From: Tridacna crocea
Lineage: Eukaryota > Mollusca > Bivalvia > Cardiida > Cardiidae
Assembly (NCBI GenBank): GCA_943736015.1
Contig: OX031065.1
Coordinates: 24,380,427-24,444,426 of the forward strand
Reading direction: 5' to 3'
Length of the DNA stretch: 64,000 nt
Positions 25,264 through 48,600 of the stretch are shown piece after piece (within the stretch, counting starts at the first letter, position 1; the number at the start of each line of letters is the position of its first letter). Position numbers and translations under genes: made by a program. The notes under the pieces are model-generated. The model did no database searches. It saw only the letters and a list, made by a program, of their open reading frames with translations, and was not told where the DNA came from.

Positions 25264-28200
25264 CGTTACAACACATCAGAAAGTTTGAAAGAGTATTCAA
25301 GCGTTGAAAGTAACTTCAAACTGACATGATAACTTTAAAAGTGAAGTTGATACCTAAAATATCAACCCAAGAGTGGTATGATTATTTTGAAAGTTTATTT
25401 GCGGTGGACTGAAAGGACCCACTGCCGAGCAAGAGCACTCAAAGCTAATTCTAAATGACACCGTCAATGAACACGATGATGAAATCCATTATAAAATATT
25501 AAATTCGTACATTACTGACGGAGATGTATCAGCTGCTGTAAAGGCGCTAAACTTATCAAAAGCGTCATCAGGATTACTTGCAGTTGGACACTTTAATTTC
25601 AGTATTAACTTCATTTTACCATATTTACGAAAGTTATTCAATAATTTATTCATGGAAGGTGTTTTTCCTTCAAAGTGGGCCACTTCAGGCACAGCACTTA
25701 TACATAAGAAAGGAAGCATAAATGATCCAGATAATTACAGGGGTATCTCCCTCATTGACGTGTTTAGCAAAATTTATAATCATATTTATACCCCCCAAAA
25801 CTCTGTTTGGGGGGTATATAGGAGTCAGCCTGTCGGTCGGTCCGTCCGTCGGTCCGTCCGTCCGTCGGTTGGTCCGTCTGTAGCTTTTTGTCCGCTCTAT
25901 TTCTCATAAACTACCAAACGAATTTTATTCAAACTTCACAGGTAAACTCAGTATCAAGCAAAGATGTGCATATGAAATGTTGGTTATGGTTTATTGATTT
26001 TTCACTGAGTTATGGCCCTTTCGTGTAATTTCTTGTCCGCTCTTTTTCTCATCAACTATTGAACAGATTTGTTTCAAACTACACAAATAGACTCAGTATA
26101 AAGCAGAGATGTGCATATCCTATTTTGGTTGTGGTTTCTTTAGGTTTCATGGAGTTATGGCCCTTTGATGATTCTGGACAAATTTCTTTTTCATACTTGA
26201 ATTTTGTCCGGAGCATATCTCCAAAACTATACTACTTACGGTTATGAAATTTCATGGGTGGATAGATCTCATCGAGGGGGAGTGCAATGTACAGGAATCA
26301 TAACTCTTGCTAGCTTAATTTTTGAGTTATTGCCCTTTGTTGTTTTTTTATACTTGAATTTTGTCCGGAGCGTATCTCAATAACTATAATAGCTGGGATT
26401 ATGAAATTTCATGGGTGGATAGATCTCACCAAGGGGGAGTGCAGTGCACATGAATTATAACTCTTGCTTGCTTAATTTTTGAGTTATTGCCCTTTGTCGT
26501 TTTTAATACTTGAATTTGGTCCGGAGCGAATCTCCAAAACTATACTAGCTAGGGTTATGAAATTTCATGGCTGAATAGATCTCGCCAAGAGGGAGTGCAG
26601 TGCACAGGAATCATAACTCCTGCTCGCTTAATTTTTGAGTTATTGCCCTTTGTCGTTTTTAATACTTGAATTTGGTCCGGTGATTATGTCCAAAACTATA
26701 CTTGCTAGGGTTATGAAATTTCATGGGTGGATTGATCTCATCAAGGGGGGGGGGTGCAGTGCATAGGAATAATAACTCCTGTTCGCTTAATTTTTGAGTT
26801 ATTGCCCTTTGTTGTTTTTCATACTTGAATTTTGTCCGGAGCGTATCTCCAAAACTATACTACGTAGGGTTATGAAATTTCATGGATGGATAGATCTCAT
26901 CAAGGGGGAGTGCAGTGCACAGGAATCATAACTCTTGCTTGCTTAATTTTTGAGTTATTGCCCTTTGTCGTTTTTCATACTTGAATTTGGTCCGGTGTAT
27001 GCCCCAGCTTAACAACTTGGGGTAAGACGGGCGTATCTTGCGACAATTTGCCGCTCATGTTCAACTCTTACTTTTGTACTCAACCATTCTGCATTCTGTG
27101 ACAAAGACCTGTTTGGTGGGTATGATCACGTTATGTGATAGCTCTAGTTTAAATAAACGTTTGACTACCTTTGCAGGTATTTATGGACTCCTTTCAGAAT
27201 CACAAGCAGGCATTAGATCAGGATATTCATCAATAAATAATGTCTTTGTATTAAATTCCATTGGAACCAAATGTCTGTCGATGAAACGCAAAAAAAAACT
27301 TTACGGTAGCCTTTATCGATTTTATAAAGGCCTATGACTTTGTTGACAGGCAAAAATTATTCTATGCTTTATCTATGAGTGGAATAGATGGAAAATTATT
27401 AAGCCCTATTAAGTCTATGTTTCCACAGTTTAAACTGTAATCCGCAACGGTAGCGAGCTGAGTAATTCACTCCTTTGCACAATCGGTTTCAGAAAAGGTG
27501 TTGTCTTATTAACGAATTACACAACGTAATTTCTGGTAGTGGTATAAAAGGAGTTCAATTATTTCCTTATTTTGAAGAAATTTTTCTTTTAATGTTCGCG
27601 GATGATGTTGGTTTTATTGCTGATACAAGAATAGGATTGCAGCAACAACTTAATACTCTTTACTCCTTTTGCATTGATTGGAAATTAACAGTGAACATAG
27701 CAAAAATTAAAATAGTAGTTTTCAGAAAAGGTGGAAAACTATCAAGAAATGAATGTTGGCATTATGCAAACCATCCCATTGAATGTGTTAATAGTTTTTC
27801 GTATGTTGGTGTGAACTTCAAGTCTTCTTTACCTTTATACAAAATGCCCGAATCTAATGCTTTGAAAGCAAAACGTGTTCTTGCAAATATTCTTTCGTAC
27901 CTAAAACGGTTTATGCCCCTGAATAGTATGATATATTTTAAAATCTTTGACTCTAAAATCACATCTATTTATGTCATGGTTGTGTACTATGGGGACTGCA
28001 GTCAATGGACAGTATTGAACGGATACAAAAATACGCATGTAAAAGATTTATGTATGTTCCATCAAATGCACTATACGAATCCGTATTAGGCGATTGTGGT
28101 CGCTTTCCTTTACATCTCTACTATAGTAAAAATGTAATCAAGTACTAGCTAAGAATATTAACTATGTCAGAACACAGGTTTGTAAAGAAATGTTATTCAA

Positions 28201-28965
28201 TGTTAAAATTATTTGATTCATTTGGCTATGTCAAATGGGTTACAAGAGTTAGGAAAAATTTACGTGAAAATATGTCTGGGACAATCAGTCTGTCAACAAT
28301 AAAAAACAATTCATTTCTATCTACTTGTAGAGACTTAAAGATCAGTATCTGCAACTATGGAGAAGTAATTGCTGTACTCGTTCAAAGCGTTCTTTCTATA
28401 GTGGCTTTAAAGTCACCTTTGAAAAGGAATTCTATCCAGATAATGTTAAAACTAAAAAATCAGAAAGGCTATTTCTTATTTTAGAACTTCTACTCTGCTG
28501 CTTGCTGTCGAGCAGGGACGACACCGTGGAATAGAATATGAAAACAGGTTATGTTCTTATTGTAAAAATGCTGTAGAAGATTCGTATCATTTTTTGCTAG
28601 TATGCCCTCTCTATTGTAACATAAGAAAACAATTTATTAAGAAATCGTATTATACACATTCATCTATGAATAAATTGAACAGTTTATTGAACAGGAGAAA
28701 TGAAACTGATCAAAGAAATATAGCAATGCTTCTGTACTACGCTTATGAAAAAAGAAGAGATTTTATGCAGTCATTGGATGCAGTACACGCATGAATCAAA
28801 CATTTAATTTCATAACTGCTTTCACTTTCTAATAAGTACTTCAAAATATTATCTCACACTGGTTGTGTATCGCATGTTGTATTATTGTATTGTTATTGTA
28901 TAGACTGGAGGCCATATATCATATTAATAAACTATGAACTTTAAACTATATAAAGAATATATACT
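25264..28965 (+). mobile_element. 5'-truncated non-LTR retrotransposon, decayed, with nested repeat
   Basis: Reverse transcriptase pieces appear in order: 'NYRGISLIDVFSKIY' near 25735, 'SESQAGIRSGYSS' near 27193, and 'FADD' at 27595-27606 followed by 'WKLTVNIAK'. Later come 'NSFSYVGVNF' near 27790 and a C-terminal Cys-rich segment with 'SYHFLLVCPLY' near 28585. The frames are interrupted many times. It differs from the CR1-like element at 4200 (no PHD or endonuclease seen). Both edges are visible because the left arm is uninterrupted at 10488-10545. It is split by the repeat at 25787-27023. The clade is not certain. Confidence 0.8.
25787..27023 (+). repeat. Interspersed repeat of GTCGGTCCGTCC tract plus ~165-bp tandem units
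   Basis: It opens with the hairpin 'ccccccaaaactctgttt' and a GTCC-rich tract (25830-25880). The unit around 'ggttatgaaatttcatggg' plus 'tttttgagttattgcccttt' then repeats about six times at roughly 165-bp spacing. It closes near 'ccccagcttaacaacttgg'. It interrupts the LINE between 'KIYNHIY' and the next RT block. A diverged stretch of the same units is at 49240-49640. Confidence 0.75.
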
Positions 28966-30440: not shown

Positions 30441-31792
30441 CATAAGGCCTATATTTGACCCTTGAATTCTGTATCATACAAATCAAATCAGGAGAGTTTT
30501 TGTTTGTTTGGGTTTTTTTGGCTCTCAACCACACAACAAACCCTAGTATGTTTTATGAGTTCTCAGTGAAAGGTCTTATGAAAACAGTCTTGGATAGGAA
30601 GACATCGGAATTTTTTTTTTATTTTCTTCCAGGATTTTTTCTACCCTTTACCAATACAAACCACATAATCCGAGCCATATTTATAGGAATGTATAAAGTG
30701 TACGCTTAGATTAAGTAAGGTACATTTTGGGCGTTTTATCATGGAATTGTTCCTCAGCAATGGGTCACTCTGTTTATTTTTTGTTACATCAGGTATGGTG
30801 TCTTGATAGATGTAAATCCTTGTCGATGGTGATTAATTACCATTCCCACAAGGCTTTCGAGAACGGTAGCATGAAATTTAATATACCAAAGAGGCTATAT
30901 AGACCATTTTCCAGCAAGAATTCACTGATGAGTCATTTTATATTTATATTGTGGAGATGGGGCGGAGTAAAAGATTTTGTCCTCCGGTAAAGCGTTCAAC
31001 AAGAAGGCACAAACATTTTATAGTCAATACATGTGTAAGTAGTAGTATCTTGATCTTTGATAAAATCGGTGCATGATTGCAGACACTAATTGACAGTTGT
31101 AAACATTAACACTTGCTTTTACAGAGTTATTATATATTTATTGTTTTTACTTTCTAGTACGTTTACATGCGGCTACACTTCACCATTCAGCGACAAAAAA
31201 AGTAAAATGTCTGGATGAATTTCAAAGTTTTGGGAAAACCTTAAAATTCTGATGAAATAAGCAAGTGTAAATAAAACATATCTTTTATATAGAGACCTAA
31301 TTACCTCTTAAACTTCCCCATTTTATGATGACATGAGCCTTGAAAAATATTCTCTTTTCTTTTTTTGACCGTACAATGGTAGCGGTTTGACCCAAAACAC
31401 ATACTGTCATGTGCACACGATTTTGCACTTAACATCTTACTTTAACTTTTAGCTGCTACACCCAAACTTCGCTTTTTTTTTTTTTTTTTTTTGAAACAAG
31501 ATATAGAGTCCTATGGGTGTTTAACGTCCGATATACAGTAATGTAATAACATCATTGCATCAAATTACTACTCAAATAAGTAGCAAAATAACATTGCTGC
31601 ACAGCACACTTGGTTGAACTTCGACCACAATTGTCCTTGGATACTCTACTCGACTAAATACTTACATATTAATATGTACTATGTGTCATATTTTCTAAAC
31701 ATTTTCATTATATCTAATCATAGCTTAAAACTGTTCAACAAATCCGCTTTCCAGGACTTTTCGTCCTTTTATTATTCTATATCCTTCAATAG

Positions 31793-31867
31793 GAGTCACC
31801 GAATGTATGCTTTTGAAGATGGTATTGAGAAAGATTACGGGTGTGAAATTCATGTGTTTGATCCTTT
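31793..31867 (+). CDS. METTL24-like: METTL24-like gene, internal exon B
   Basis: The exon starts after 'ttcaatag' and stops before 'gtgagt'. Its first base completes the glycine codon opened by exon A, and 24 codons follow, including 'MYAFEDGIEKDYGCEIHVFD' and then Pro. The pattern 'F-E-x-x-I-x-x-x-Y-G-C-E-[IV]-H-x-F-D-P' is the SAM-binding strand region of METTL24/FkbM-like methyltransferases (the acidic Asp of 'FDP' is expected to contact the cofactor ribose, from family knowledge). It ends two bases into a codon, which exon C completes. The inverted left arm keeps the intron up to this acceptor but not the exon. Confidence 0.8.
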
Positions 31868-31977
31868 GTGAGTATCTTTCTGATGTATCTAAAAAGCTAG
31901 ATTGAACTAATTTGCTCTTAACTTTTATTGGATAGATAAAATAAATATTACCAAGACTACATCATTATTTTACCAAA

Positions 31978-32222: not shown

Positions 32223-32256
32223 ATTATTATTGCCTACTGACTTTTTGTCTTAAATA

Positions 32257-32525
32257 CGGTGGCACAAAAGTGACATGGAAGATATATTTTATACTACGTG
32301 CGCACGTAATAGTTATTACGTGCCCACGTAATAGTTAATACGTGCGCACGCAATAGTATTACGTGCGCACGTATTAGTTAATACGTGCGCACGTATTAGC
32401 TACTGCGTGCGCACGTAATACTATTGCGTGCGCACGTATTAGTTATTACGTGCCCACGTATTAGTTAATACGTGCGCACGCAATAGTATTACGTGCGCAC
32501 GTATTAGTTATTACGTGCGCACGTA
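32257..32525. repeat. Left TIR (38 bp) plus subterminal array of 11 palindromic units
   Basis: The TIR is 32257-32294. From 32295 to 32525 the motif 'tacgtgcgcacgta', or a one- or two-base variant (central gcgc to gccc, outer tac to tgc), repeats every 21-22 bp. The linkers are 'atagtta', 'ttagtta', 'atactat' and similar. The spacing equals about two helical turns. A likely role is binding of the THAP domain to bring the ends together (inference). Confidence 0.9.
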
Positions 32526-32532
32526 ATAATCC

Positions 32533-32542
32533 ACCAATCAGA
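32533..32542 (+). promoter_or_regulatory. CCAAT box inside left array
   Basis: 'accaatcaga' lies 8 bp inside the array, upstream of the SWIM/YqaJ gene on the + strand. It matches the NF-Y consensus core CCAAT with CAG after it. The mirrored copy is at 43399-43408. Confidence 0.5.
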
Positions 32543-32599
32543 ATCATGAACGGAAGCCATTGTTTCAAGATGGAAGTAGACATTTATTGATTCGTGAAT

Positions 32600-32760
32600 A
32601 TGGTGGACAGAATAGTGAAACTATGAGAAGAAGATATAAAAGGCGCCGTACTACCTGATCCAGTTGTTGAGGACAACGATGCAAAGGATCTCGCAAGAAG
32701 GCTGAATTGTTGAGGCTTTGCGGCGAACACAAGTTGTTCAAAAAAGAGATTTATTAACAG
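32600..32760 (+). pseudogene. Candidate first coding exon of the SWIM/YqaJ gene
   Basis: An ATG at about 32600 opens 'MVDRIVKL' and then a stop. The next frame gives 'EEDIKGAVLPDPVVEDNDA' and 'KDLARRL', and a third gives 'KAELLRLCGEHKLFKKEI' before the donor 'cag|gtaaat' at 32760/32761. The last segment resembles the SAP/LEM-like helical start of such proteins, but this is weak. Two frame changes and no alternative use suggest a decayed exon. Its position next to the array and CCAAT box supports it as the 5' end of the gene. Confidence 0.35.
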
Positions 32761-33019
32761 GTAAATTAAGAGAAATATCTTGCCCACTTGCGCGACGAGC
32801 TGTGACTCTGAGCGAGTTTGAATCGCCGTCCTTATGTTTTTCAGACATCGCCCATATAGACTGATTATACACTAAACTGTTTATCATGCATCCAAAGCCT
32901 AAGTTGTGGATATTCTTTTGAAAGGGAATTCCAATGGTTACGGGTCCGTAACTTTGATGTTTTGGCCTACGATTCGGGGTTCCCCTAAGATCCATTTCCT
33001 TCTATGTGCTGGCGGTTTT

Positions 33020-33510
33020 TAGCTCCACTTGCCGAAGGCCAGCGAGCTATTGTCATGGCGTTGTGTCCGTCATGCGTCCGTCCGTTCGTCCGTCCGTTCG
33101 TTCGTCCGTGCGTGCGTCCGTAAACTTTTTCTTTAAAAAACTTCTCCTCAGAAACTATTGACTGGATTTTTTACCAAATTTCACAGGAATGTTCCTTAGG
33201 TGGTCCTCTTTCAAATTTCTTCAAATAACTGTGTTCCATGAATAATTCTGGTTTCCATGGGCATGGCAACCAAAGTAAAAAACCTTTAAAAATCTTCTCC
33301 TCCCAAACCACTAATTGGACAGCATCACTATTTTGCAGGAATGTTCCTTAGATAGAGGTCTACAGAATTCCTTAAAAAAAAAGATCCATCAAAAAACATG
33401 GCTTTTATGGGAGACTCATTTTCCTTTTATGGTATAAAGTAAAATCTTTGAAAAATTTCTTCTCTCAAACTGTTCGTTTTGATTTCATTGTTGTATTGCA
33501 GGTTAGTTCC
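33020..33510 (+). repeat. Interspersed repeat (AGCTCCACTTG ... GTCCGTCC type) inside transposon
   Basis: It begins 'tagctccacttgccgaagg', then a 'gtccgtccgttcgtccgtcc' tract, then 'tttccatgggcatggcaacc' at about 33252. It is the same general repeat type as at 51227. It stops where a TTAA MITE begins at about 33521. Confidence 0.65.
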
Positions 33511-33520
33511 TATGGTGGTA

Positions 33521-34300
33521 AGTCTTTACCATACAATCCTGACTTTTAACGACCCTAAAGAAGAAGTCTTTGGAAAACACTCTTGGAAAAGGAGAAAATG
33601 CTGGTAATCAGCATTTTCTCCTTTTCCCTCAGTGTTTTCTACTCCATCAAAGAGAGAAATAATCATTTCATCAATGTTTAATTTGTTGTCTGCAAATGCT
33701 TTCAGTTTGGTCACATCCCAAATTTTGTCGTTTGGTAAAGAGTTAAAGATGGTTGCTTTACATAATCTATAATCCTTTTCATATAAAACAAGAGAACCTC
33801 TGCACTTTGATTAGTTCTGGTAAAGGTTTGTTGACCTACTGGTGACCTAGTACAAAGAGGGACAGGGCTTTACTGTTGTGATAAGGCATTTTGTTATCCA
33901 ATCAAACTGATCCCTGACAAAGAAGACTTTAGAAAAGATTGTGGGAAAAGGAGAAAATGCTGGTAACCTTTTCCCACAATGTTATCTACCCTACACAGAA
34001 CAACTTTCAAATTTTCAGTCACTTTTATTTTTTCATCTACAAATGCTTTCCATTTGGGCAACCCTAAAATGTTGTCGTTTGGTAATGAGTTAACTATAAC
34101 CAGACGACAAAATCTTTATAACTGGCCATAATTGAAAGATGTTGCAGACAACATAAATCTTCAAATTAGTAAAACTTGTATCAAAAAGGGTAGAAATTAT
34201 TGTGTAAAACTAAGAAAATGCAGGTTACTTTTATTTTCTTCTTTTCTCACAATGTTTTTCATAGCCTTTTTTCTTAAAATGCAGTAATGAATGGTAATTG
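33521..34300. mobile_element. Three adjoining TTAA MITE copies inside the transposon
   Basis: Copy 33521-33744 is reversed ('ctttaccatacaatcctgac' to 'gtttggtaaagagttaaag') and has an intact hairpin at 33575-33640. Copy 33890-34089 is reversed and lacks one half of the hairpin arm. Copy 34095-34300 is forward ('accagacgacaaaatc') and diverged. Confidence 0.75.
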
Positions 34301-34664
34301 TTAAAAACTTCTCTTCACCGTTACAGAAAAATCAGGCCTGTGGAGCGATACAGGTGCTCAAGCGCCTCTAGTTATTTTCCACAAGAATATTTTCTGTATT
34401 TGGTCTAAACCAATGTGGAAAAAGATGACTTCAGCATATGCAAACTTAAGCAATATGCACTAGATTCCCATTCAGCTGTTATTAATAAATTTAACACCTG
34501 TAAACGGCATTTATTAATGATTTATTTATTTATAAATATATCTAACTATAGGCTAGCATACTTATAACTTGAAAAGCCTATCACATAGAAGCTAGGACTA
34601 GTAACATTCTACACTTGATGTACAGAATAACTTTTAAAATATTGTGCATTGTTTGATATTTCAG

Positions 34665-35306
34665 GGTGAAAGATCTTCAAGAGAATGGACTTTCAAAGTT
34701 TGTTGTTGACCTGGATGGATCAGAATGTAGTCAGAATGTGTTAACTGAGGCAGACTGCGGAATCCGTAAAGATATTAATTTTCCACTTCCATTACTGAGA
34801 AACTGGACAACAAATATGGGTTCTATTCCAAGAGGTTTCAACTATGCTTGCATAGTTGACTATCTAGTTAAAAGAAAATTAATGATAGTTCATGCTGCAG
34901 ACTCTGACAATGAAGACTCTGTTACAATCACAGATTTGCCTGTTGCCCAGAAACCACTGAGGAAAGGTTTTAACTTTTTTAAATCTGGTCATGTAAGTGA
35001 TGTAAAATTTAATAAACTGGAAGACTACACACATGTCAGTGGAATGGTGTTGTCATCATACAAGAGCAAGACATTTCAAACAGATTTAGTTTTAAAAAAC
35101 AGCACTGGTGAAGTTATGAAAGGAAAGTACAGATTTATGTGCAGCAGGACTTGGAGGAAAGTGCAATCATATAGCCATTGTACTTTTTGGCCTATTGGAC
35201 TTTCAAGAATCTTTAAATGATGCACCAGAAAGCTGCACTTCCAAGGAACAGAAATAGCACCTGCCTTCAAGAAAAGCAAAGAAGCTAACCAAACCCATAA
35301 AAACAG
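34665..35306 (+). pseudogene. SWIM/YqaJ gene, exon with SWIM zinc finger, broken
   Basis: Acceptor 'atatttcag', donor 'cag|gtattt'. The exon reads from 'VKDLQENGLSKFVVDLDGSE' to 'TGEVMKGKYRFM', as in the region N-terminal to the SWIM finger of YqaJ-partner proteins ('VSGMVLSSYKSKTFQ'). Just after 35137 the frame must shift to read the SWIM motif 'CAAGLGGKCNHIAIVLFGLL' (35138 on; C, then C-x-H). A TAG at 35255-35257 then stops that frame where a tryptophan would fit, and the reading continues 'HLPSRKAKKLTKPIKT' to the donor in phase 1. SWIM fingers bind DNA or proteins. So there is one frameshift and one nonsense change in this exon. Confidence 0.7.
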
Positions 35307-35353
35307 GTATTTTTTTTTACATTGTCCAGTTGTGATAAAAAATCTATAAAATG

Positions 35354-35482
35354 TCTTTGATAGGGTAGAAAACAATGCGGGAAATGGAGAAAATGCTGGT
35401 TATCAGCATTTTCTCCTTTTCCCACAATGTTTTCAAAATGCTTCTTTGTTTGGGTTGTTTAAAGTCAGGATTGTGTGGTAGA
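35354..35482 (+). mobile_element. TTAA MITE copy, 3' part
   Basis: It starts at 'gatagggtagaaaacaatgc', holds the complete hairpin 35366-35435, and ends 'ggattgtgtggtagagttaa'. It occupies the intron of the SWIM/YqaJ gene. ORFs on both strands (35375-35575 and 35344-35724) are artefacts. Confidence 0.75.
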
Positions 35483-35689
35483 GTTAAAATAGAGGTCTTG
35501 TGCATTTTCATTATACAATGTACAGTACTACAACAAACATCAGAAGCTTTCCCCATTTGTTCTGAAAATTTGTGACATTTGTGTGATGCTTTGCATCGCT
35601 TTCGAAGTGTATTTATAATGTTTGCTGTCGCTTTCGACAATTTTTTTTTCATTTTATATTTCTCATGTGACCAGAAGGTCTGTTGTTGG

Positions 35690-35790
35690 GACTTGAAACT
35701 TTGAACCACAATCAGTGTGACCACAATACCTCACAGGTCTGAGATTACAAGCTTTAACCACTGAGCCTCACTAACCCTGTTATGCATTTG
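35690..35790 (-). repeat. Possible tRNA-derived SINE fragment
   Basis: The reverse complement contains 'gaggctcagtggttaaagc', close to a tRNA A box, and 'gtaatctcagacctg' further on. Too short to assign a family. Confidence 0.35.
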
Positions 35791-35904
35791 GAAATAAACT
35801 TGGACTAAGAATGGAAACCAAAATGTTTGGTGAACAAAAGATCCATGCTAATCAAACTGTGTTCTTTTAACATTTTTACAAAAAATCTGATTCTCCCATT
35901 TCAG

Positions 35905-36068
35905 GTGTTCGTGTTGTCCAAAAACATGTATTTGGACGCTCTGTATGACGAAAAAGACCTCTTGAAAACTATGATGGGTACAGTGTACGAATGAAAAAGG
36001 CCATCTTAGATACCACTGCCTTAAAAGAAGACTTGAAGCAATTACTTCATGAAAAAGGCTTGCTGATG
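35905..36068 (+). pseudogene. SWIM/YqaJ gene, exon between SWIM and YqaJ
   Basis: Acceptor 'cccatttcag', donor 'gtaagc'. Two bases complete the split codon of the previous exon. The reading then runs 54 codons, ending 'KKAILDTTALKEDLKQLLHE' and 'KGLLM', with a single TGA at 35946-35948. The phases fit both neighbours, which supports the exon despite the stop. Confidence 0.55.
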
Positions 36069-36506
36069 GTAAGCACTAAAATTTCAACATTGATGAAAAC
36101 CATTCTTGGAGCTTCTTTGAAATAAGTAACATTTACATGCAGTGTCTTTTTCATTGTTGAAAATAATCACAGGGACAGCACTGTGCCAATCTTTCAGGTG
36201 GTTGACAAATGTATTCTTTAACATTTACGTTGACTTTTGTCAACATTTACAATGTTGAGTAAACATGATGAACTTTTTTCAAACATTGTGCAAGGTTGTT
36301 TCAACCATAACCTGTAGTAAGGTATTGGACAATATAGATCAAAGATTAGTCTGCATGCTCTGTGTAGTCTGATCTTGATCTGCACTGATGGTAAAAGCAA
36401 GTTTACTTGAATTTAGCATTGTGAAGGTTAGAATGAAAAGCAAAGGATAAAAAGGATAAAAAATAACCCAACATACATGAAAAACTATTTAATTCATTTT
36501 CTTCAG

Positions 36507-36584
36507 ATTCTTAACTCAAGCACTGATACTGCTAGTGAAGTTGAAGAAGAGAGGATTAATACTCATCAACTTCCAGAGGAAATA
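36507..36584 (+). pseudogene. SWIM/YqaJ gene, small acidic exon
   Basis: Acceptor 'ttcttcag', donor 'gtttgt'. It holds 26 codons in phase 0 at both sides, rich in Glu, Ser and Thr ('STDTASEVEEERINTHQLPE'). It is an unstructured linker by appearance. Support comes from phase and splice sites only. Confidence 0.4.
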
Positions 36585-36659
36585 GTTTGTCAAAAACTTA
36601 AGATATTTACATATAAGACTTTATCTTATAATTTTTTATCAACAACCTCAGTTTAACTC

Positions 36660-37341
36660 ATCACAAAAGGACAATATTTTAGGCTGGTCCAAATCGATAG
36701 CAATTGCAGACAACAAAATAATAATGACTGAAAATTTGAAATATGTGTTGTGAAGGGTAGAAAACATTGTGGGAAAAGGAGAAAATGCTGGTAACCAGCA
36801 TTTTCTCCTTTTCGCACAATGTTTTCTAAAGGCTTCTTTCTCAGGATCGTCGAAAGTAGGGATAGTGTGGCAATGGATTAAATTACCTCAGTAAGAAAGT
36901 TAACATAAAGTTCTGTTAACTCCTTACGGAACAACAAAGTTTTAGACTTGTCCAAATTGAAAGCTTTTGCAGATGACAAAATTAATGTGACACAAAAAAT
37001 GAAATTTAATTTGTGAAGGGTAGAAAACATTGTGGGAAAAGGAGAAAATGCTGGTTACCATGTTTTCAAACAACTTCTGTCTCTGGAGTCCTGAAAACCA
37101 GGGATTGTTTGGTAAAGGGTTAAAGACATCAAATCTTTAAGCAAGCAACATTTTTCATCTGCAATATTTTACATTAGGTTTAGTAAAGAAAGAAAAAGGT
37201 TGATTTTTTTCCCAGCAGGGTCAAAAACAATGTGTGAAAAGGATGAAATGCTGGTTACCAGCATTTTCTCCTTTTCCCATAGGGTTTTCTAAAAGGTTTT
37301 TTTCTCAGGGTCATTAAAAGTCGGGATTGTGTGATAAAGAG
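36660..37341. mobile_element. Three TTAA MITE copies inside the transposon
   Basis: Copies are at about 36660-36879, at 36921-37119 (exact TTAA at 36917-36920 and 37120-37123; part of the hairpin arm missing) and at about 37210-37341. All are forward and end in variants of 'gggattgtgtggtaaagg' + TTAA. Confidence 0.8.
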
Positions 37342-37393
37342 TTAACTTGAAAGCAGTCGATAAATGATAACAGCTAATTTATTGCCTTTATAG

Positions 37394-37960
37394 GTCACAG
37401 AGGCACGACAGAAAGAAATCAAAAAGCAAACTCATGGACAAGCAAATAACCCATTGTGGTTCAGGCACAAGAAAGGCAGGATTACAGCAAGCAAGGCGAA
37501 AAAGTTTGTCGGAAAGGGAAATATTGGAACCCTAGTTAAAGATATTATTCAGATAAGAAAACCAAAATTGACATCCATTCCAGCTGTCAAATATGGGATA
37601 GATAATGAAGTTGTTGTCGTTAAATACAAGCAGCAGAAAGCAGCACAAGGTGTAAATATAACAGTCTGTGGGTGTGGTTTGTTTGTTGATTTGGAATTTG
37701 GGCAGCTTGCTGCTAGTCCTGATGGCCTGATTACAGATCCTTCAGAGAAAGATCCACATGGATTGGTTGAAATTAAGTACATTTATTCTTGTAGAGATAT
37801 TTCTCCTAAAGAAGCCATTGAAAGAAAAAGGTCTTCTAGCCAGTTTTCACTTAAAGCATTTGGAGAAACAATCATTATGAAAGAAAGCCATTCTCAAAAA
37901 GTTGTTGGACTTCCACACAATGAACATTGTACCTACTTTGGTAGCTCAGGGGTTTTATAA
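37394..37960 (+). pseudogene. SWIM/YqaJ gene, exon with YqaJ-type nuclease domain
   Basis: It follows acceptor 'gcctttatag'. After 20 lead codons it reads 'WFRHKKGRITASKAKKFVG', the usual YqaJ opening (R-x-G-R-I-T-A-S). An acidic residue follows in 'GIDNEVVVVKY', then 'LAASPDGLI' (Asp at 37721) and 'GLVEIKY' (Glu at 37769, Lys two residues on). These form the S-P-D-G ... E-x-K core of the PD-(D/E)xK fold shared with lambda exonuclease. The exon is an uninterrupted 189-codon reading, but it ends at 37960 just before a TTAA MITE, and the C-terminal part of the domain is lost or altered after 'KESHSQKVV'. The family processes DNA ends; its role in transposition is not known to me. Confidence 0.75.
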
Positions 37961-37977
37961 AAAAAGGATAAAAATAG

Positions 37978-38795
37978 GTCTTGAGTGGTAGAAAACATTG
38001 TGGGAAAAGGAGAAAATGTTTCCATTACTTTTTCCTTTTCCTACAATTTTTTCGAAAAGCCTTCTTTCTAAGGAGTGTTAAAAGATGGGATTGTATGCTA
38101 TGTGTTAGAACAAAGAATTTGCATTTAACCCTCTACCAAACAATCCCTGGTTTTTACGACCCAGAGGAAGCAGCCTTCTGAAAACATCGCAGGAAAAGGA
38201 GAAAATGCTGGTAACCAGCATTTTCTCCTTTTCCCAAAATTTTTTCTACACATCTAAAGTAAAGTTTCAGTTTTTGAATCACGTTTATATTGTCGTCTGC
38301 CGAATTTGGACAAATCTAAAAATTTGTCATTAGGTAAAACCTAGAGCACTTGTGAGAAAATAGAAACTACTGGTAACCAGCATTTCCTCCTTTTCTCACG
38401 AAGTTTTCTAGAGCTTTCTTTCTTATGATAATCAAAACTCAAGGTTGTTTGGTAATGTGTTAATTTAAGATGTCCACAATGTCTACAATTATGCATTTTT
38501 TCTTCCATTTAAGACTTTCACTGATAAACATAATATATATTATGTAAAAAAGACTAAGGAAAGTTGACACATAATTTATTTTACTAGATGACAGAATTGT
38601 AGACTTACTCACTTTGAAAGCATTAGCAGATCACAAATAAAATGTCAATGAAATATGAAATTTGTCTCTCATCTAAAGAAAGGAAACTTGGAAAGGGAGA
38701 AAATGCTGGTTACCAGCACTTTTTCTATCTTTCCACAATGTTTTCAAAAGTTTTTTTATAGTGAAATGCTTAATTCAGGACTGTGTGGTAATAGA
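37978..38795. mobile_element. Four TTAA MITE copies in a row inside the transposon
   Basis: Copies are at 37978-38107 (forward, 3' part), 38129-38338 (reverse, TTAA at 38125-38128), 38345-38457 (forward, 3' part, TTAA after it), and 38580-38795 (forward). Each carries the 'ggagaaaatgctgg ... ccagcattttctcc' hairpin or its remnant. Confidence 0.75.
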
Positions 38796-39076
38796 TTGAA
38801 ATTCACAACACTTACTCACCATGTTTATAAAATGTGCCATTTTAATAAAAAATTTTGAAATTTAGTAATTGTTACTTCTTCAAAACATTTGTCCTGATGA
38901 AAATGGAAATAAAATGTAAGTGAAAAATTTAGACTCTGGTTAGCCTGCAGTCAGATTTATGAAAGTGGATGCTTTTCCCTTTTCCAGAGAAACCTTTAAT
39001 AGCTAACATTTGTTTTACTGACAAGTAATACGTGGGTAAAAATGGAACACATTTGCACAGAAAGATTAATTATTAA

Positions 39077-39236
39077 CCCTGTCCCAAACGACAAATTTTA
39101 GACTCTTCTCAATTGAAAGGGCTTGCAGACGATAATTTTAAGTTTCACTCATTACAAGCAATTTCTCCTTTCCCACAGTATTTTCAAAAGATTTGTATGG
39201 CAGACAAGTAAAAACCAGAGCTTGTTTGGGAAAGGG
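39077..39236 (+). mobile_element. TTAA MITE copy with internal deletion
   Basis: Exact TTAA on both sides (39073-39076 and 39237-39240). The ends are 'ccctgtcccaaacgac' and 'gcttgtttgggaaaggg'. Most of the left hairpin arm is missing. Confidence 0.75.
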
Positions 39237-39528
39237 TTAATTAAAACTTAAAAGTTTTCAAATGCATTATTTCCAAGAGGAGTTGACAGTTGGCATTGCA
39301 GGATAAAGGTTCAAATCTTTACCAGACGACAAAATTTCAGACCTTTGTCAAAATTGTATCTGCAGATGACAAGTTCACTTTGTTAAATAATGACTGCTCT
39401 GCATTCATAATTCTGTTGAAAAGTATGTGTATCATCACCATTTTGTTGGATGAGTTCAATACCATTCTAAGTGCCTATACAATGTACATGTATAGGCACT
39501 TAGAATGGTTCTGCACTCACTCATCAAT

Positions 39529-40690
39529 TTACTCAGAGTCCTTATCTACTAATGGGGGCCAAAATAAAACCAACATTACACACAACTGGAAGATGTGATT
39601 AATGTGCTTCCAAAAAGTGATAGGCACTTTAGAAGACAAAATGACCCACTGCTTCAAGCGCCCCGTGAGCCTTTCAACATGAATTCTGACACGAGCAATA
39701 GAAACAGATTCAACAAGATTCTGTATTTGCATTTGGTCTTTATTGCTCAAGAAATGTGGCGTTACAAGTCTAATTTTATGTTTTGCAAGAGACTCCCGTC
39801 CTGTAAATCCACGGTCTGCCATGATGGCATCTCCCTCCTGAAGTTTTTCAACCAATCCACTATCAAAAATTATCTGATTGTCAGAAATAATCCCTTCGAA
39901 AAGATCTGAAATCAATGTCGGAATTCCATTTGGACTTATACCAATGAGGTCTTTCAACGTGTTGCAACTCTTGTACGTGGAGTAAGTTGCTGCCTGTACT
40001 TCAAAGTCAGATGGTCTTTCCAGTGATATTTCTGTACAGTCAATTATAATCTGTACATCCTGGTAAATTTCCTTGAATATATTTGGACTGTTACGCCTTA
40101 TTTTTCCCCTTGACATCCAAATGTCTAAACTACACAAGACACTGTGCATAAAGTTCACCCATGTAATAAATATGCGTGACACATGGATTTCACTAATACC
40201 AAACCTCTCTGCCAGATCCAAGTTGGCAGAGCCTTGCCTTAGTTTCACTAGGGTCATGAACATTTCATCCATTGGAATAAGTGTTCTCTTTCTGCCACAT
40301 TTCAAACTGTCTCCATCTTTAGTGGTTGAGTTATTTGCGCCCCAGTACTGTAAACATTTTGCCTCCTGCTCCAGCATATTATGATAGAATGTCATCAAAG
40401 CCTGGTAGGAGTAAAATCCTGTCCAAAAACCTAATGTCCGAATCACTTCCCTCAAACCTTTTTAGGAAAAATCTGTCATAATGTCTTAACTCAACCACAC
40501 AGTCCAACTGCTCTTCCACATTCATAAGCAATTTGGTCACAACAATCAGCAGGGCTTGTAATTCCCTTATACTGTTTGGATCGGGGTCAGAATCTTGGGA
40601 GGATAATTTGTTTAGAATATTTTGGAGCAGCTGTTGAAGTTTGTCTTTTACTATTACCGTACTACCCTTTTGGTTTTTGCAGGCTTTTTC
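39529..40690 (-). pseudogene. Transposase exon 3: HTH plus DDE domain, one frameshift
   Basis: Acceptor (- strand) 'tgtatttcag'. The exon opens with a helical, acidic stretch ('EKACKNQKGSTV' ... 'LLMNVEEQLDCVVELR'). It changes frame in a five-A run (five T on the coding strand) at 40425-40429 and then reads 308 codons to the stop. That part holds 'FWTGFYSYQALMTFYHNML', an HTH_Tnp_4-like helix-turn-helix ('MDEMFMTLVKLRQGSANLDL' to 'ISEIHVSRIFITW'), and the DDE triad: D139 in 'IIIDCTE' (about 40040), D214 in 'IMADRGF' (about 39815), E261 in 'RIHVERLTGR' (about 39674). Spacing and motifs fit DDE_Tnp_4 (IS5/PIF-Harbinger-related). One T too many in the run is the only lesion seen; it could also be a sequencing error. 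Confidence 0.85.
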
Positions 40691-40766
40691 CTGAAATACA
40701 AAATTATGATTTGGAATATAATAGTCTTAAAGGCACAAGTCTTTTTGACTTGATTTTGTTCCTTAA

Positions 40767-40987
40767 CCCTTTACTCCATAGATACTCATTTCTACTCATT
40801 GCTTGCAGGAGCCTATGGAAAACATTGTGGCAAAAGGTGAAATTGCTCGTGACAAGCAATTTCACCTTTTGTCACAATGTTTTCTATGCTGTCAAAAGGT
40901 AACATATACACATAAGAAACGGCTTCATCCTTGTTGTTATTTAGGGTAAATTAGAGATACCACAGAAATGCCTTATGGGGTAAAGGG
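40767..40987. mobile_element. TTAA MITE, variant subfamily
   Basis: Exact TTAA flanks (40763-40766 and 40988-40991) with ends 'ccctttactcc' and 'ggggtaaaggg'. The hairpin core differs: 'ggtgaaattgctcgtgac' mirrored as 'gcaatttcacc', instead of the usual 'ggagaaaatgctgg'. It lies in the transposase intron between exons 2 and 3. Confidence 0.8.
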
Positions 40988-41029
40988 TTAACCAGCTGTT
41001 TTTTTAGGTATTTGTTCATCTTGCCAAAG

Positions 41030-41470
41030 CAAAGAATGCAGGTCTTTTATGAACCTATCAAAAACTGAGGAGTGAAAAAGGGAGAAAATGCTTGTGTTCT
41101 GTATTTCCTCCTTTTTCCATACTTCTTTCTCCTGTAGGAGAAACAAACTTCATACTTTTGATAACATTTGTAATCTGCAACCAAAACTAAAACTTTGTAC
41201 GATGCTAGGGCTCTGAAATGCTATGCTACAGTCTTGCCAGTTTTTCTCAACCACAATGCAAGATAACATCATGGGTTATAAATGTTACAAAATTTATTCT
41301 AAATCTTAAAACATTGACAATTTAAAGTTAACTTTGGGAAAAGACAAAAATACTTGTACCAGTAACCACAAAGTTTTCAACCCTACAAGATGCATATTTT
41401 GTGTAACATTTTAACTGTTATTTACAGACTCTTTCATAAAAATTTCTTGCCTGGTAAAGAGTTAAGAAAA
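41030..41470. mobile_element. Diverged TTAA MITE remnants
   Basis: Core pieces 'aaaagggagaaaatgctt' near 41078 and 'ttcctcctttttccat' near 41106, and a terminal 'cctggtaaagagttaag' near 41452. Boundaries are uncertain. Confidence 0.5.
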
Positions 41471-41485
41471 AGACAATATTATAAC

Positions 41486-41602
41486 CTGAGCATTTGGCTG
41501 TCCGACTGTCTCTAACAACAAATGATTTTCATCTGCGATTGTAGATTCATCCAAGCTTACTGTATATGATGTTCTCTCCACATTTAAGGTACTGATATTT
41601 GC
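41486..41602 (-). CDS. Transposase exon 2 (linker)
   Basis: On the - strand it is bounded by 'ctatttcag' and 'gttata'. It is 39 codons with no stop, phase 0 at both sides, matching exon 1 (ends phase 0) and exon 3 (starts phase 0). It reads 'ANISTLNVERTSYTVSLDES' and onward, a linker without known domain between the THAP finger and the HTH/DDE part. It is inferred from splice sites and phase. Confidence 0.65.
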
Positions 41603-41639
41603 CTGAAATAGACAATACAGTATGAAAAGAAAAAATTAC

Positions 41640-41815
41640 ACCTTCATGTGGACCAAAAGATAGTGGAGGCTCCGAGTTAAAGCGTCACTGGATACACTAT
41701 ATTTTTTATTGGAGTGTCCTGGGCAAGACACTTCAGGGCACCAGCCTTGTACTACAGAAACCCAGGAAATACATGAATATGTGATACCAGTTAAACAATC
41801 CTTCAATCAAGTAAA
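41640..41815 (+). repeat. Possible SINE unit
   Basis: 'gtgtcctgggcaagacactt' near 41706 matches the SINE-type motif also seen, in weaker form, at 9712. Upstream 'ggaggctccgagttaaagc' resembles a degraded A box. Lies in the first transposase intron. Confidence 0.4.
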
Positions 41816-41914
41816 CTACACCATCAAGATCAAGGGTAATATTTTAGACAAAATATTGTGAAATAGCAACAGACAGACTGAATCCTTTCAATGTTAGGCC
41901 AGTGGACTACCCTC

Positions 41915-42060
41915 TTTAAACTAGTCCTAATTCAAAGCACTTGCAGATGACAAATTAAAGGTAACTAAAAAATCAAAATTGTTTTGGGAAAGGTGGAAAA
42001 CCTTTTGGGAAAAGGAGAATAATTATGCCGGTAACCAGCATTCAAAATCTTTCGACAACA
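41915..42060 (+). mobile_element. TTAA MITE copy, 5' part only
   Basis: 'gcacttgcagatgacaaatt' through 'ggaaaaccttttgggaaaag' and half of the core. It is cut by an unrelated segment beginning near 42056. Confidence 0.65.
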
Positions 42061-42395
42061 CCCCTTCCAAGCGCGGATCCATATATCTTTCTCAGGGGGG
42101 GTCCCACCGAAAACACACTTGTCTTATTATATGATACTTTGGTTTACGGATTTCAGTGGATGTAAGCCGTTTACAAGAAAAGTCAACGTTTCCAGTTCTA
42201 ACCATGAGGAAGTCTCCACATTTAGAACCTTTCTTTTTTAAAGTTATGGCTGTATTTTACATAAATGCTGTGCAATATCAAACCAGTACCATTTCACGAA
42301 TCCGGCAACCGCATTATTGCCAAAATTCCAGGGGTGTCCGGACCCCCAGTCCCCCCCTCTGGAGCCGCCCATGCCTTCGTTGGGTCATTACAAGG
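42060..42395. other. Unassigned insertion between MITE pieces
   Basis: A GC-richer stretch with 'caggggtgtccggacccc' near 42329 and G/C runs at both sides ('agggggggtccc' near 42097). It looks like a separate repeat nested in a MITE, but I found no second copy. Confidence 0.3.
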
Positions 42396-42870
42396 TAGGA
42401 TTGTGTGGTAAAGAGTTAAGCCAATACCAGCTCTTAACAACCATATGGAAGAAGCATTTTGAAAACCAGATGGGAAAAGGAGAAATGCTGTTAAACAGCA
42501 TTTTCTCCTTTTCTCACAATGTTTTCTATAGGAGTGGCAACATAAATCATCATTTGGTATGATGTGTTGTCTGCAAATGCTTTGAATGTGGTCCATTTAA
42601 AAACTTTGTTGTTTGGTAAAGAACTAAGCTGATTTGCTGTTAGTTTGTTTGATTGAACTTTAATCTTAGTAAGTTACGGGTTGTGATTTTAACCCTTGAC
42701 CAAACAACAGACAATATTTGACACATCCAACTTTGCCGATGACATATTTGTCACTGACAGGTATGAAAACATTGTGGGTTAAGGAAAAATTGTTGGTTAC
42801 TATAATCTTTTCAAAATGTTTCTTTCACATGGTCGTTTTAAAGTCGGGCTCGTTTGGTAAAAAAAAAAAA
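42396..42870. mobile_element. TTAA MITE pieces inside the transposon
   Basis: A 3' end 'aggattgtgtggtaaagag' + TTAA (about 42394-42420), a reversed full copy at about 42421-42627 with hairpin 42470-42530, and a forward copy at about 42695-42862 starting 'cccttgaccaaacaacag'. Confidence 0.7.
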
Positions 42871-42938
42871 TGATTGGTTGGTTATTGTCCAAAATATGCA
42901 TCCATTTGCATCTATTGATTTAAAAGAATATGGTATAC

Positions 42939-43340
42939 CTGTGTATCAAAAAGTCTTTTTCTCATCCTCTTTTCTCTTGCTGTACTTCCGTCTTCACCAG
43001 TTTTCTGTCTTTTCCTGTAAGACTGAGGCTGAACCATTTTGAATGATCTGAATTTCGGTCTTGCAGGGTCAGATCTGTTGTTATACGTGTAAATTACTTT
43101 CTCCCAATCTTGCGACCTTGGAAAGATTGTAGGACAAGAGTCATCATATGTCTTGCGTCCATTAACAAAGTGGAGACTGCACACGCTGGTCCATTGAGAC
43201 TCAGTTCGCAAGTTTTCGTTCCGAATCAGCCTTATCCAAGTCTGTCTTTCACCCGTTCCTTTCTTGGGAAGCCGATAAAAAGGTAGGTTACCTTTAGATT
43301 CGGCAGTACACAAAGGAACACAATAATTTACTCGAGGCAT
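42939..43340 (-). CDS. Transposase exon 1: THAP DNA-binding domain
   Basis: The start ATG is at 43340 on the - strand, about 60 bp inside the CCAAT box and 75 bp inside the right array. The THAP finger has C7-x3-C11, conserved W35, and C54-x2-H57 followed by Phe, with the 'FYRLPKKG' and 'CSLHF' motifs of the C2CH family. A basic stretch follows ('KMVQPQSYRKRQKTGED' and 'REKRMRKRLFD'), possibly nuclear localisation. The exon is 134 codons and ends at the donor 'gatacacag|gtatac', phase 0. In transposons such as P and ISL2EU/Kolobok types the THAP finger binds near the element ends. Here the 14-mer arrays are the obvious candidate sites (inference). Confidence 0.88.
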
Positions 43341-43398
43341 GGTGAAAATGCAGCGCGACTGATATTTGTTTACCAGAGTGACATCATAGGGGTAGAGG

Positions 43399-43408
43399 TC
43401 TGATTGGT
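43399..43408 (-). promoter_or_regulatory. CCAAT box inside right array
   Basis: On the - strand it reads 'accaatcaga', 7 bp inside the right array and about 60 bp before the transposase ATG. It is the same 10-mer as at 32533, so the mirrored ends share array plus promoter element. Confidence 0.55.
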
Positions 43409-43415
43409 CGATTAA

Positions 43416-43793
43416 TACGTGCGCACGTAATAGTTATTACGTGCGCACGTATTAGTTAATACGTGCGCACGTATTAGCTAATACGTGCGCACGCAATAGT
43501 ATTACGTGCGCACGTATTAGTTAATACGTGCGCACGTATTAGCTACTGCGTGCGCACGTAATACTATTGCGTGCGCACGTATTAACTAATACGTGGGCAC
43601 GTAATAACTAATACGTGCGCACGCAATAGTATTACGTGCGCACGCAGTAGCTAATACGTGCGCACGTATTAACTAATACGTGCGCACGTAATACTATTGC
43701 GTGCGCACGTATTAACTATTACGTGCGCACGTAATAACTATTACGTGCGCACGTAGTATAAAATATATCTTCCATGTCACTTTTGTGCCACCG
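43416..43793. repeat. Right subterminal array of 16 palindromic units plus TIR
   Basis: The motif 'tacgtgcgcacgta' and variants repeat at 21-22 bp from 43416 to 43755. The 38-bp TIR (43756-43793) follows, the exact inverse of 32257-32294. This array is five units longer than the left one. The order of variants (tgcgtgc ... followed by tacgtgc with cgcaata linkers) is partly shared with the left array, which suggests copying between ends or expansion in blocks. Confidence 0.9.
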
Positions 43794-43869
43794 TACTTAA
43801 AGCCTACTGATATTGAATCAATTCGATAGAAGTTAAATGTAAATGGAGCAATGCCTTTTCCTTACGATA

Positions 43870-45667: not shown

Positions 45668-48600
45668 GGTAAAAACGTTTTCCAAAAACACGTAATGAAG
45701 TGAATTTAAAACACGTTATAACGCAAAAAGTCGCATTAACGCGAAAAATAATGTATTTTACGTGTTTAAAAGTCTAAGTAACGCTAAAGATCTCGTTGTA
45801 ACGTGAATTTGAAACACGTAATAACGCAAAACAAAGTCGCATGAACATGAAAAAATATGCACTAATGTGTTTTAAAACATTTACTAACGCATTTAAAAGT
45901 GATAACATGAATCGAAAATTTAAATAAAGTGTTCTTTTTACCTTTACAACATTACATGGGAACGGTTATCTTAAATTTAGAATAAGTTCATTGATATACA
46001 ATCGAATATCCCAACTCTTTTTTCATGACCTTTCTAGGATTCACTAGTATTAGGTCTGCATCTTTACTTTTTTTGCAACTGTTAGATGAGGGGTCACTAA
46101 TGGCAGCGAAGATCGAATATGGATTACAGCAATGAAAGAAAATTTTCACTATCATTATCCTTCATCTTGACAAGACTGTTGAAAATCTTTGTTCAATTGA
46201 TGTTTCGCATTCTTTCTTACATTTTTCATGTATTTAGCCTCGGGAGTACGCTTACCAATACTGGCTAGTTTTTTTTTCAGCAATAACTCGCCAATTACTA
46301 CCAATAATTCGGTGAGCGATATTTGCAAGCCACTGGCTGCTATTCTACATAGTCATCTTTGAAAGATGCCAAAAAGTGAAAGAGGAATGAAACCTTTAGC
46401 ACTGACGACCATCGCTCTCCAAAAAGAATTTTTGCTCAGCCGTTACATCGAGCCATCGGACGGCCTCCCGGCCTGTTTCAAGCCTTTTATGTTTACAAAC
46501 TGACCTACCAAGGTCAGAGAGGTCTCAATGTGTAGATATTCATTGAGGTGGCATTCATGAAGGATTAAATAATCAGCAAATATTGCAGTGATTTAAACAC
46601 CAATGAAAACGGGGTAAAATCGAAATAAACAAAAAACATCCAGACATTAGCGAAGTCGCAATGTTTGTTTCGTTATAAAGGTTTCATTTGGAAATCTTAT
46701 GTGGTTTGAGGGTCAGAATTATTAGCTTGTAACTTACGCTAGTCACGTCTAATGGCAGAAAACAGAAAAGCTGCATACTTATATTGATGATATTTGAATT
46801 GGAAGATTCACTGGACTTCTTTGAACTCAATCATAACGTTAACAGTAAAAGAAAAGTGGTGTTACTAGAGGTTTCTGATTCGCGTTACTACGACCGCTTT
46901 AAACAAATAAATACGAGATTTTTTCACGTAAGTGTGACTTTTTTGCGTCGTATTGGGTGTTTACACCATGTTCGCGGCAGCCACGGCAGCCCCATTTCTG
47001 ACAACGGTGAACAAAACCTGATTGACGTAATACAACGTAGAGGAACGGGATACGCAAACTTGATCGTATCAGAACTTACCAGCAAATAACAAACCGCAAT
47101 AAGACTCGGAGACGATCCGTGTCTGGACGTGGAAGCCCTTTTTGCACCGGTATGGCCCAGGTCCTAAAAAGTCGCAACGATCGATCCATTCCGCTACAGC
47201 CTGTCAAGTTTCTCACCAGTACCGTGGTAACCCAGGCGATCACGGTCTGACAAGTTTGTTTATCACGTTCCTCTGTGTCGTACACGTAGCGTAAAGAGAC
47301 TTAGATAAATTTAACTAAACTTGGTAAATGAAGAAAAAAGGAACAAAATCTCACAGCACACCACGTTTCAGACAAACGGGACTTCCGTTGCTGCCGAAAA
47401 TATACTATAAACGTAGGGTTACTACGACTTTTAAACGCATTTATTGTGTGGTTTAAATAGAGGATAATGCATGAGTGTTTTATGTATTAAATTATCATTT
47501 TTATCAAACGAGTTGGCAATTTAAGTTGTATGGCACGAGCGTCCAATACATTTTCGTCAACGAGTTTGATAAAAACGATACTACCTAAACACGAATGTGA
47601 GATTATATTCATCACAGAAAAAAAAAAAAACGAAGGACAGACGGAAAAATGCCCTGCATCATCACCTGATCCTCTATACTGTTCATGGGTCTATGTTTAC
47701 AATTTTGGTTTCGTTTCAGATCTGTATTCACAAGTAAATAGTTCTTTGACATTTACACCGAAAGAAGAATGAGATACTTTAAAGTGGGATTAAATCCACT
47801 TCCTTCCGCTATATTATTGGTTTTAAGAGACTTTCGCCGCATTTCAAGATTTCTATAAAACATGAAAAGCAAAAAGTTTCCGCGCTTATACGTCTTGGCA
47901 ACAGTGACGTCATTTTTCCATAAAACGGCGTAGCAGTACAACTTCGTTTGGTTTCTCTTGCTTCACGCGCTCATTACTGAAAATTTATCAGAACCGAGAC
48001 CAAAAAAATGATAATACTCTAGTGTATTATCAAAAATAAGTCTAATACACTGCCAGAGGAGATGTAAATGTGATAAGACACGTTACTGCGGTATTTTTCG
48101 CTTTAGTGCGACTTTCTTAAGTATTTTTACGAGCTTTGCTTCACGTTATAACGACAATTTTTACGTTACTACGACTTTTTAACAGATTATCACGCGTTAC
48201 TACGACTTTTTAACAGATTATCACGTGTTTTAACGTAGTTGACCCCTAATAGAAAACAGCTATTTCCACAATAATATTATCCTACAAAATTTGCTATGAT
48301 TAAAAAAGAGTGTTATTGTACTTCTTTAACCAAGCCACTTTGAAATCCCTTTTTGTCTTTTCTAAAAAAATCACTTATAAATCTAAAACCACTATATTTT
48401 CATAACAAAGATAGATATTAATTACCTCCCTTTTCTGAAAACTAACAAAAGTATCTACAAATAATTTCAAGATAGATATAAAGAAATTTCTGGTCGGTTA
48501 AAAATGTGTAAAAGTATTATACCTGTATAAATCCATAATTATCAACTATCAAGAAAACTTTATGCGATGCAGCACCAGAGGTATTAGGGGTCTACTACCT

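Follow-up and report, generated by a model that had tools for sequence, protein, structure and literature searches.

A Tridacna crocea transposon with IS3EU-type ends carries a disrupted ISL2EU-like gene pair and is probably mobilised in trans

IS3EU, a Repbase superfamily grouped with GingerRoot (PMC10045372), is described in the accessible passages of two papers by TA..TA or TAYGG..CCRTA termini, terminal inverted repeats (TIRs) longer than 30 bp, 6-bp target-site duplications and an integrase-type (rve) transposase (PMC10045372; PMC12730594), and its fungal members can carry cargo genes encoding a TET/JBP dioxygenase or an alpha-kinase (PMC12730594). ISL2EU elements, which belong to the PHIS superfamily, are characterised in the accessible text of PMC4482050 by AT duplications, termini that are usually GG, and a transposase with THAP, helix-turn-helix (HTH) and DDE parts accompanied by a YqaJ open reading frame (ORF); for PHIS elements, duplications of 0-4 bp are reported (PMC10045372; PMC12730594). 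Here, we analyzed 64,000 nucleotides of T. crocea (assembly GCA_943736015.1, contig OX031065.1, positions 24,380,427 to 24,444,426 of the forward strand; hereafter the window) and report an 11,541-bp transposon at window positions 32255-43795 whose ends and target-site duplication are those of IS3EU and whose genes are those of ISL2EU. We consider it, with a probability of roughly three in four, to be an IS3EU shell with ISL2EU-derived cargo that is mobilised in trans by an IS3EU-type integrase of its own family.

The element begins with TACGG, ends with CCGTA and is flanked on both sides by CTTAAA, a 6-bp target-site duplication. Its inverted-repeat arms run for 280 nt at 98% complementarity, with 40 bp of TIR before arrays of a short palindrome begin. 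An 18-nt end pattern (up to three mismatches) matches twice in the window, compared with a mean of 0.05 in shuffled sequences, and the 14-bp palindrome TACGTGCGCACGTA (up to two mismatches) occurs 27 times, 11 at the left end and 16 at the right, compared with a mean of 0.01. The first-pass annotation had reported such arrays inside both ends, as this count confirms, together with perfect 38-bp TIRs; the inverted ends are real and lie 2 bp further out, the TA being part of the element. At the ends read, TA directly precedes CGGTGG and the repeated flanks lie outside that TA. When the whole window was scanned, no TAYGG pair flanked by a 6-bp duplication came up besides this element, the ends of which comprise:

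32249-32254, no strand: left target-site duplication CTTAAA, an exact 6-bp direct repeat
32255-32294, plus strand: left terminal inverted repeat, TACGGTGGCACAAAAGTGAC..., from inverted-arm and end-pattern matches
32295-32525, plus strand: left subterminal array of 11 palindromes (14 bp) in units of about 22 bp, from the palindrome scan
43416-43755, minus strand: right subterminal array of 16 palindromes, from the palindrome scan
43756-43795, minus strand: right terminal inverted repeat, ...CCACCGTA, from inverted-arm and end-pattern matches
43796-43801, no strand: right target-site duplication CTTAAA, an exact 6-bp direct repeat

The strongest proof of the duplication length is an empty site. 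On contig C9 (44166351-44189407; L043-L045), a full-length copy sits inside another copy, at the start of the latter's THAP gene. The flanks of the nested copy, joined with a single GAAAAT, equal window positions 43290-43403 (100% over 114 bp), and none of the 14 other full-length copies read is interrupted there, 13 of them matching at 100% and the copy L046 at 97%. Together with the flank repeats, this exact empty site therefore defines the element as 32255-43795 with CTTAAA duplicated. We counted exact 6-bp duplications around 29 of 31 complete elements: 24 of the 26 in a first set, the remaining two differing by one base, and all five further small elements met during the search for an autonomous partner. 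No other duplication length recurs, the duplicated sequences are varied, and flanks paired wrongly as a control agree in 2 of 650 cases. TA or TTAA as the target-site duplication is ruled out, as TA sits at the ends read and the nested empty site shows exactly six bases. Two small elements (L013 and L014; contig C3, 50.08 and 50.15 Mb) occupy the identical position of a host repeat, GACA|GTTAAG|AC, possibly a preferred target.

Between these ends, frames reading inward from the right match the Pfam families DDE_Tnp_4 (1.1e-37), HTH_Tnp_4 (5.8e-13) and THAP (2.3e-9), and a three-exon model whose GT/AG splice sites share one phase upholds the spliced THAP, HTH_Tnp_4 and DDE_Tnp_4 transposase proposed in the first-pass annotation. 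The gene reading inward from the left had been called a SWIM/YqaJ nuclease; one of its frames matches YqaJ (4.5e-6) and Viral_alk_exo (8.9e-9), and the SWIM label is a judgment by eye, with no Pfam match for SWIM on the frames of this gene. The exons of the two genes are:

34665-35306, plus strand: SWIM-like exon of the YqaJ gene (by eye), from splice sites, with a 4-bp frameshift and a TAG
35905-36068, plus strand: another YqaJ-gene exon, interrupted by an in-frame TGA, from splice sites and copy comparison
37394-37960, plus strand: YqaJ/alkaline-exonuclease-like exon (PF09588, 4.5e-6; PF01771, 8.9e-9), with 128 bp missing relative to L046
39529-40690, minus strand: transposase exon 3, HTH_Tnp_4 and DDE_Tnp_4 after a frameshift at a run of five Ts (T5, 40425-40429), from Pfam and splice sites
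41486-41602, minus strand: transposase exon 2, 117 nt, with a TTTCAG acceptor and a CAG|GT donor
42939-43340, minus strand: transposase exon 1, THAP (PF05485, 2.3e-9), 402 nt, with a CAG|GT donor

Within the gene-bearing interior (33573-42812), 15 places are at least 60% alike to a 48-nt palindromic motif, GAAAACATTGTGGGAAAAGG...; these are probably nested miniature inverted-repeat transposable elements that explain much of the length of the element.

Gene content and ends thus point to different superfamilies. The domains equal the published ISL2EU gene pair (PMC4482050, in its accessible part), as the first-pass annotation had noted in naming ISL2EU: THAP, HTH and DDE domains are all there in a transposase whose frame is broken at the T5 run, and the YqaJ domain sits in a partner gene broken in all 14 main copies (the window copy and L019-L043). 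An ordinary, intact ISL2EU family would account for this pairing; we regard it as next to impossible. Published ISL2EU elements show AT duplications and, usually, GG termini, whereas here varied 6-bp duplications accompany TACGG at the ends read, so the element fails as ISL2EU, and its broken genes, the integrase remnant described below and the lack of internal AT|GG..CC|AT ends in our scan tell against that family as well. In contrast, the TAYGG..CCRTA termini, the 6-bp duplication and TIRs longer than 30 bp all agree with IS3EU, as does the retention of part of an rve_4 integrase gene, and cargo genes as such are known in fungal IS3EU (PMC12730594, in part). Unlike described IS3EU, the element spans 11.5 kb and carries another superfamily's transposase and nuclease; no rve or integrase-type transposase was seen among its ORFs, and of such a gene the element keeps the start only. 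Because no integrase gene is left, we describe it as a non-autonomous derivative with IS3EU-type ends and not as an autonomous IS3EU.

Kolobok, defined by TTAA duplications, does not agree with varied duplications of 6 bp. The composite-like KolobokP transposons, which are frequent in bivalves and place a nuclease gene beside the transposase (PMC9587614, in the passages available), resemble the element in their described build; their Kolobok transposase, long terminal direct repeats and His-Me nuclease are their own. Among the titles and abstracts listed in searches of open-licence papers, and the passages seen, we found no description of such an IS3EU/ISL2EU combination or chimeric element; viral contigs yielded no relatives, and sequence searches of the PDB nothing informative.

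The integrase remnant came from comparison with other loci. We read ten end places without the listed T5 motif beside them (L051-L060), and two of these delimit the cargo:

32526-32599, plus strand: start of an IS3EU-type (rve_4) integrase gene, a remnant including the ATG, from alignment to L055
32600-43363, no strand: cargo module, the ISL2EU-like gene pair, bounded where the match to L055 (left) and to L060 (right) ends
43364-43412, minus strand: right inner sequence common to the same-ended locus L060, 48/49 identical before L060 diverges

L055 (contig C2) starts with the TIR seen here and a short array of the palindrome, beyond which it encodes an HTH-like segment and the core of an rve_4 integrase; its ORFs match PF24764 at 1.4e-12 and 2.7e-6, with HTH at 0.0043, under the cut-off. 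The integrase parts lie in shifted frames, and the L055 integrase is therefore broken. With a single 7-nt gap, the window remnant and the start of this gene agree in 72 of 74 aligned bases (the alignment scores 61, compared with at most 15 in 50 shuffles). Since similarity to L055 on the left and to L060 on the right both end inward, the cargo occupies about 32600-43363. Three small same-ended elements (L013, L015 and L018) have the left inner side in common with the window element. In the L055 integrase gene, the position of the left junction coincides with an AATT, the target published for ISL2EU; this is no more than suggestive. A complete nested ISL2EU with its own ends was rejected, as the AT|GG..CC|AT scan (at least 12 of 14 bases alike, pairs more than 3 kb apart) gave only the outer inverted repeat.

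Both the length of the duplication and the ends point to an rve integrase as the mover. In the scenario we favor, the interior of an IS3EU-type shell would have been replaced by a module of about 10.8 kb from an ISL2EU-like element, consisting of the THAP-HTH-DDE_Tnp_4 transposase and the SWIM/YqaJ nuclease gene and enlarged by intronic repeats. An rve-type IS3EU integrase, presumably encoded at another locus or in another individual, would recognise the ends in trans, cut and paste the element and make the 6-bp duplications, while the ISL2EU-like genes would travel as disrupted passengers whose proteins would be dispensable.

The element has multiplied in a recent burst. In the source genome (1.05 Gb, 31 contigs), a 30-nt end pattern (up to two mismatches) has 370 matches, 185 forward and 185 reverse, with 0 for the reversed control, which excludes a sole copy in the window. 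Facing ends paired by eye among the first 100 of these 370 places gave 39 pairs and left 22 ends unpaired; 24 pairs span 11.4-12.1 kb, nine less than 2.5 kb and six other lengths. Of the 14 further full-length copies read, 12 match the window element at 99.5-99.8% identity, and the burst is therefore recent; the other two are L039, with 99.1% identity over 11.2 kb, and L046, with about 97% in blastn (1.9% diverged counting substitutions alone). Among 13 copies, including that in the window and leaving out L039 and L046, pairwise differences range from 0.13 to 0.49% (mean 0.27%); the half copy L048 and the partial copy L045 stood outside the alignment. On contig C3, the element's end and the THAP exon also occur, at 93% identity over about 840 bp, in two older places that are tandem duplicates, and end and cargo were therefore joined before the present burst. 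On contig C1 (49861619-49884789; L039-L042), two full-length copies were inserted 63 bp apart.

The burst spread copies whose lesions are shared. The frameshift and TAG of the SWIM-like exon, the TGA of the next listed exon and the 128-bp loss in the YqaJ exon occur in 14/14 main copies; L046 lacks the first, has an arginine codon in place of the second and keeps the segment lost in the third, and its YqaJ exon bears separate lesions of its own. The T5 run, found in all 15 copies read, puts the HTH-DDE part of the transposase out of frame with the THAP part. With a frameshift, two stops and a deletion in one gene and a frameshift in the other, the window element is not the well-preserved reference copy it had been taken for. 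Genome-wide (up to three mismatches each), we counted 102 matches to the T5 motif and a single one to the T4 form; the latter lies in a 95%-identical exon fragment that has no recognisable ends, reads in frame across the T run and is broken further on. T5 would be the derived state, as judged from this one relic. An intron at the T5 run was rejected: inspection by eye gave no plausible splice sites, and the frame continues across this point in the T4 relic, though that relic is broken later.

The same run is where a self-mobilised PHIS/ISL2EU lineage would have to be accommodated. Its own THAP-DDE protein would act on TACGG ends and make 6-bp duplications, with T5 bypassed by a +1 slip (UUU UUG G read as UUU UGG) or by two chains, a 276-aa THAP chain and an HTH-DDE chain. 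The HTH-DDE frame is open in 14/14 main copies, one with a 9-bp in-frame deletion, and the window copy retains the catalytic D141, D216 and E263 (numbering of the 310-aa frame); the T5 motif is kept in its 102 matches, a slip on the T run is predicted to re-pair perfectly, and no intact close integrase was found in the assembly. We nevertheless find such a lineage unlikely, as the duplications reported for PHIS (0-4 bp; PMC10045372; PMC12730594) and ISL2EU (AT; PMC4482050), in the accessible text, differ from 6 bp, the lone T4 relic is in frame across the run, and an integrase gene remnant lies within the element's ends. The THAP exon is open in 10/14 main copies and L046 but has stops in 4/14, and L046 breaks off within the DDE frame. 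Nor is there any sign of coding constraint within the burst: divergence is 0.187% in coding and 0.173% in non-coding sequence, and the transposase exons show 31 non-synonymous and seven synonymous differences over about 1314 and 345 sites. A related proposal, no more probable, is that two transposase systems have fused into one working element, the THAP-DDE enzyme (through a +1 frameshift or two chains) driving or assisting movement via IS3EU ends; if true, ends, duplication length and transposase fold would have been re-paired between superfamilies.

Several observations weigh against mobilisation in trans by an IS3EU-type integrase. A genome search with the L055 core, which scored each of the 112 first-look candidates and gave 59 matches, found the broken L055 itself as the only close one; an intact integrase with matching ends was not found. 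A second end of the L055 element was not found in the 11.3 kb read (up to six mismatches, ungapped scan). The lack of coding constraint is weak evidence, as a young burst would look so anyway. With HTH-DDE open throughout the main copies, the cargo could still yield a working enzyme, through a +1 frameshift at UUU-UUG-G or as a split protein. A related integrase family with intact 306-aa frames, at seven loci, lies at 50-51% identity. That this family cross-mobilises the TACGGTGG ends seems improbable to us, less likely still than self-mobilisation. Its seven loci score equally and are intact, and the family was therefore probably active recently, but its identity over the core is no higher than this, and the 1.6 kb read on the left side of one of the seven shows different subterminal repeats and neither a TACGGTGGCACA end (up to three mismatches) nor the palindrome (up to two). 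The mover may thus be lost, absent from the assembly or more distant than expected, or may be the cargo enzyme itself, acting by a +1 slip or as two chains. L017 was rejected as an autonomous partner, since judging from its ORF the integrase sits in a Gypsy-like retrotransposon within a small same-ended element; L017 and L062 are both Gypsy-like long terminal repeat retrotransposons.

Classification by coding content alone would mis-file this element, its genes leading to ISL2EU and its ends and target mark to IS3EU. The element offers a naturally occurring example in which the ends of one superfamily enclose the transposase of another, in about 100 very young copies, which makes the question of which enzyme moves it directly testable. 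Every main copy read from the recent burst has a dead YqaJ partner gene, which bears on whether the extra ORF is needed, a question left open in the accessible text of PMC4482050.

The first-pass annotation had placed the element in a METTL24-like host intron. Frames at 31584-31868 and 55014-55370, on either side of the element, resemble methyltransferase exons, with Methyltransf_22 at E = 0.017 on one side and Methyltransf_21 at E = 0.0011 on the other; support for such a host intron is sub-threshold, with both values under the Pfam cut-offs and the METTL24 likeness seen by eye. Elsewhere in the window, 25391-28791 holds fragments that resemble reverse transcriptase, perhaps a long interspersed nuclear element; RVT_1 matches 27466-28086 at E = 4.2e-6, narrowly missing the Pfam cut-off. 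In a comparison that took in L063/L064, window repeats of the AACACGT/AACGCGAAAA type at 45690-48230 resemble, by eye, the subterminal array of the intact related integrase family on contig C5 and are perhaps a decayed relic of that family.

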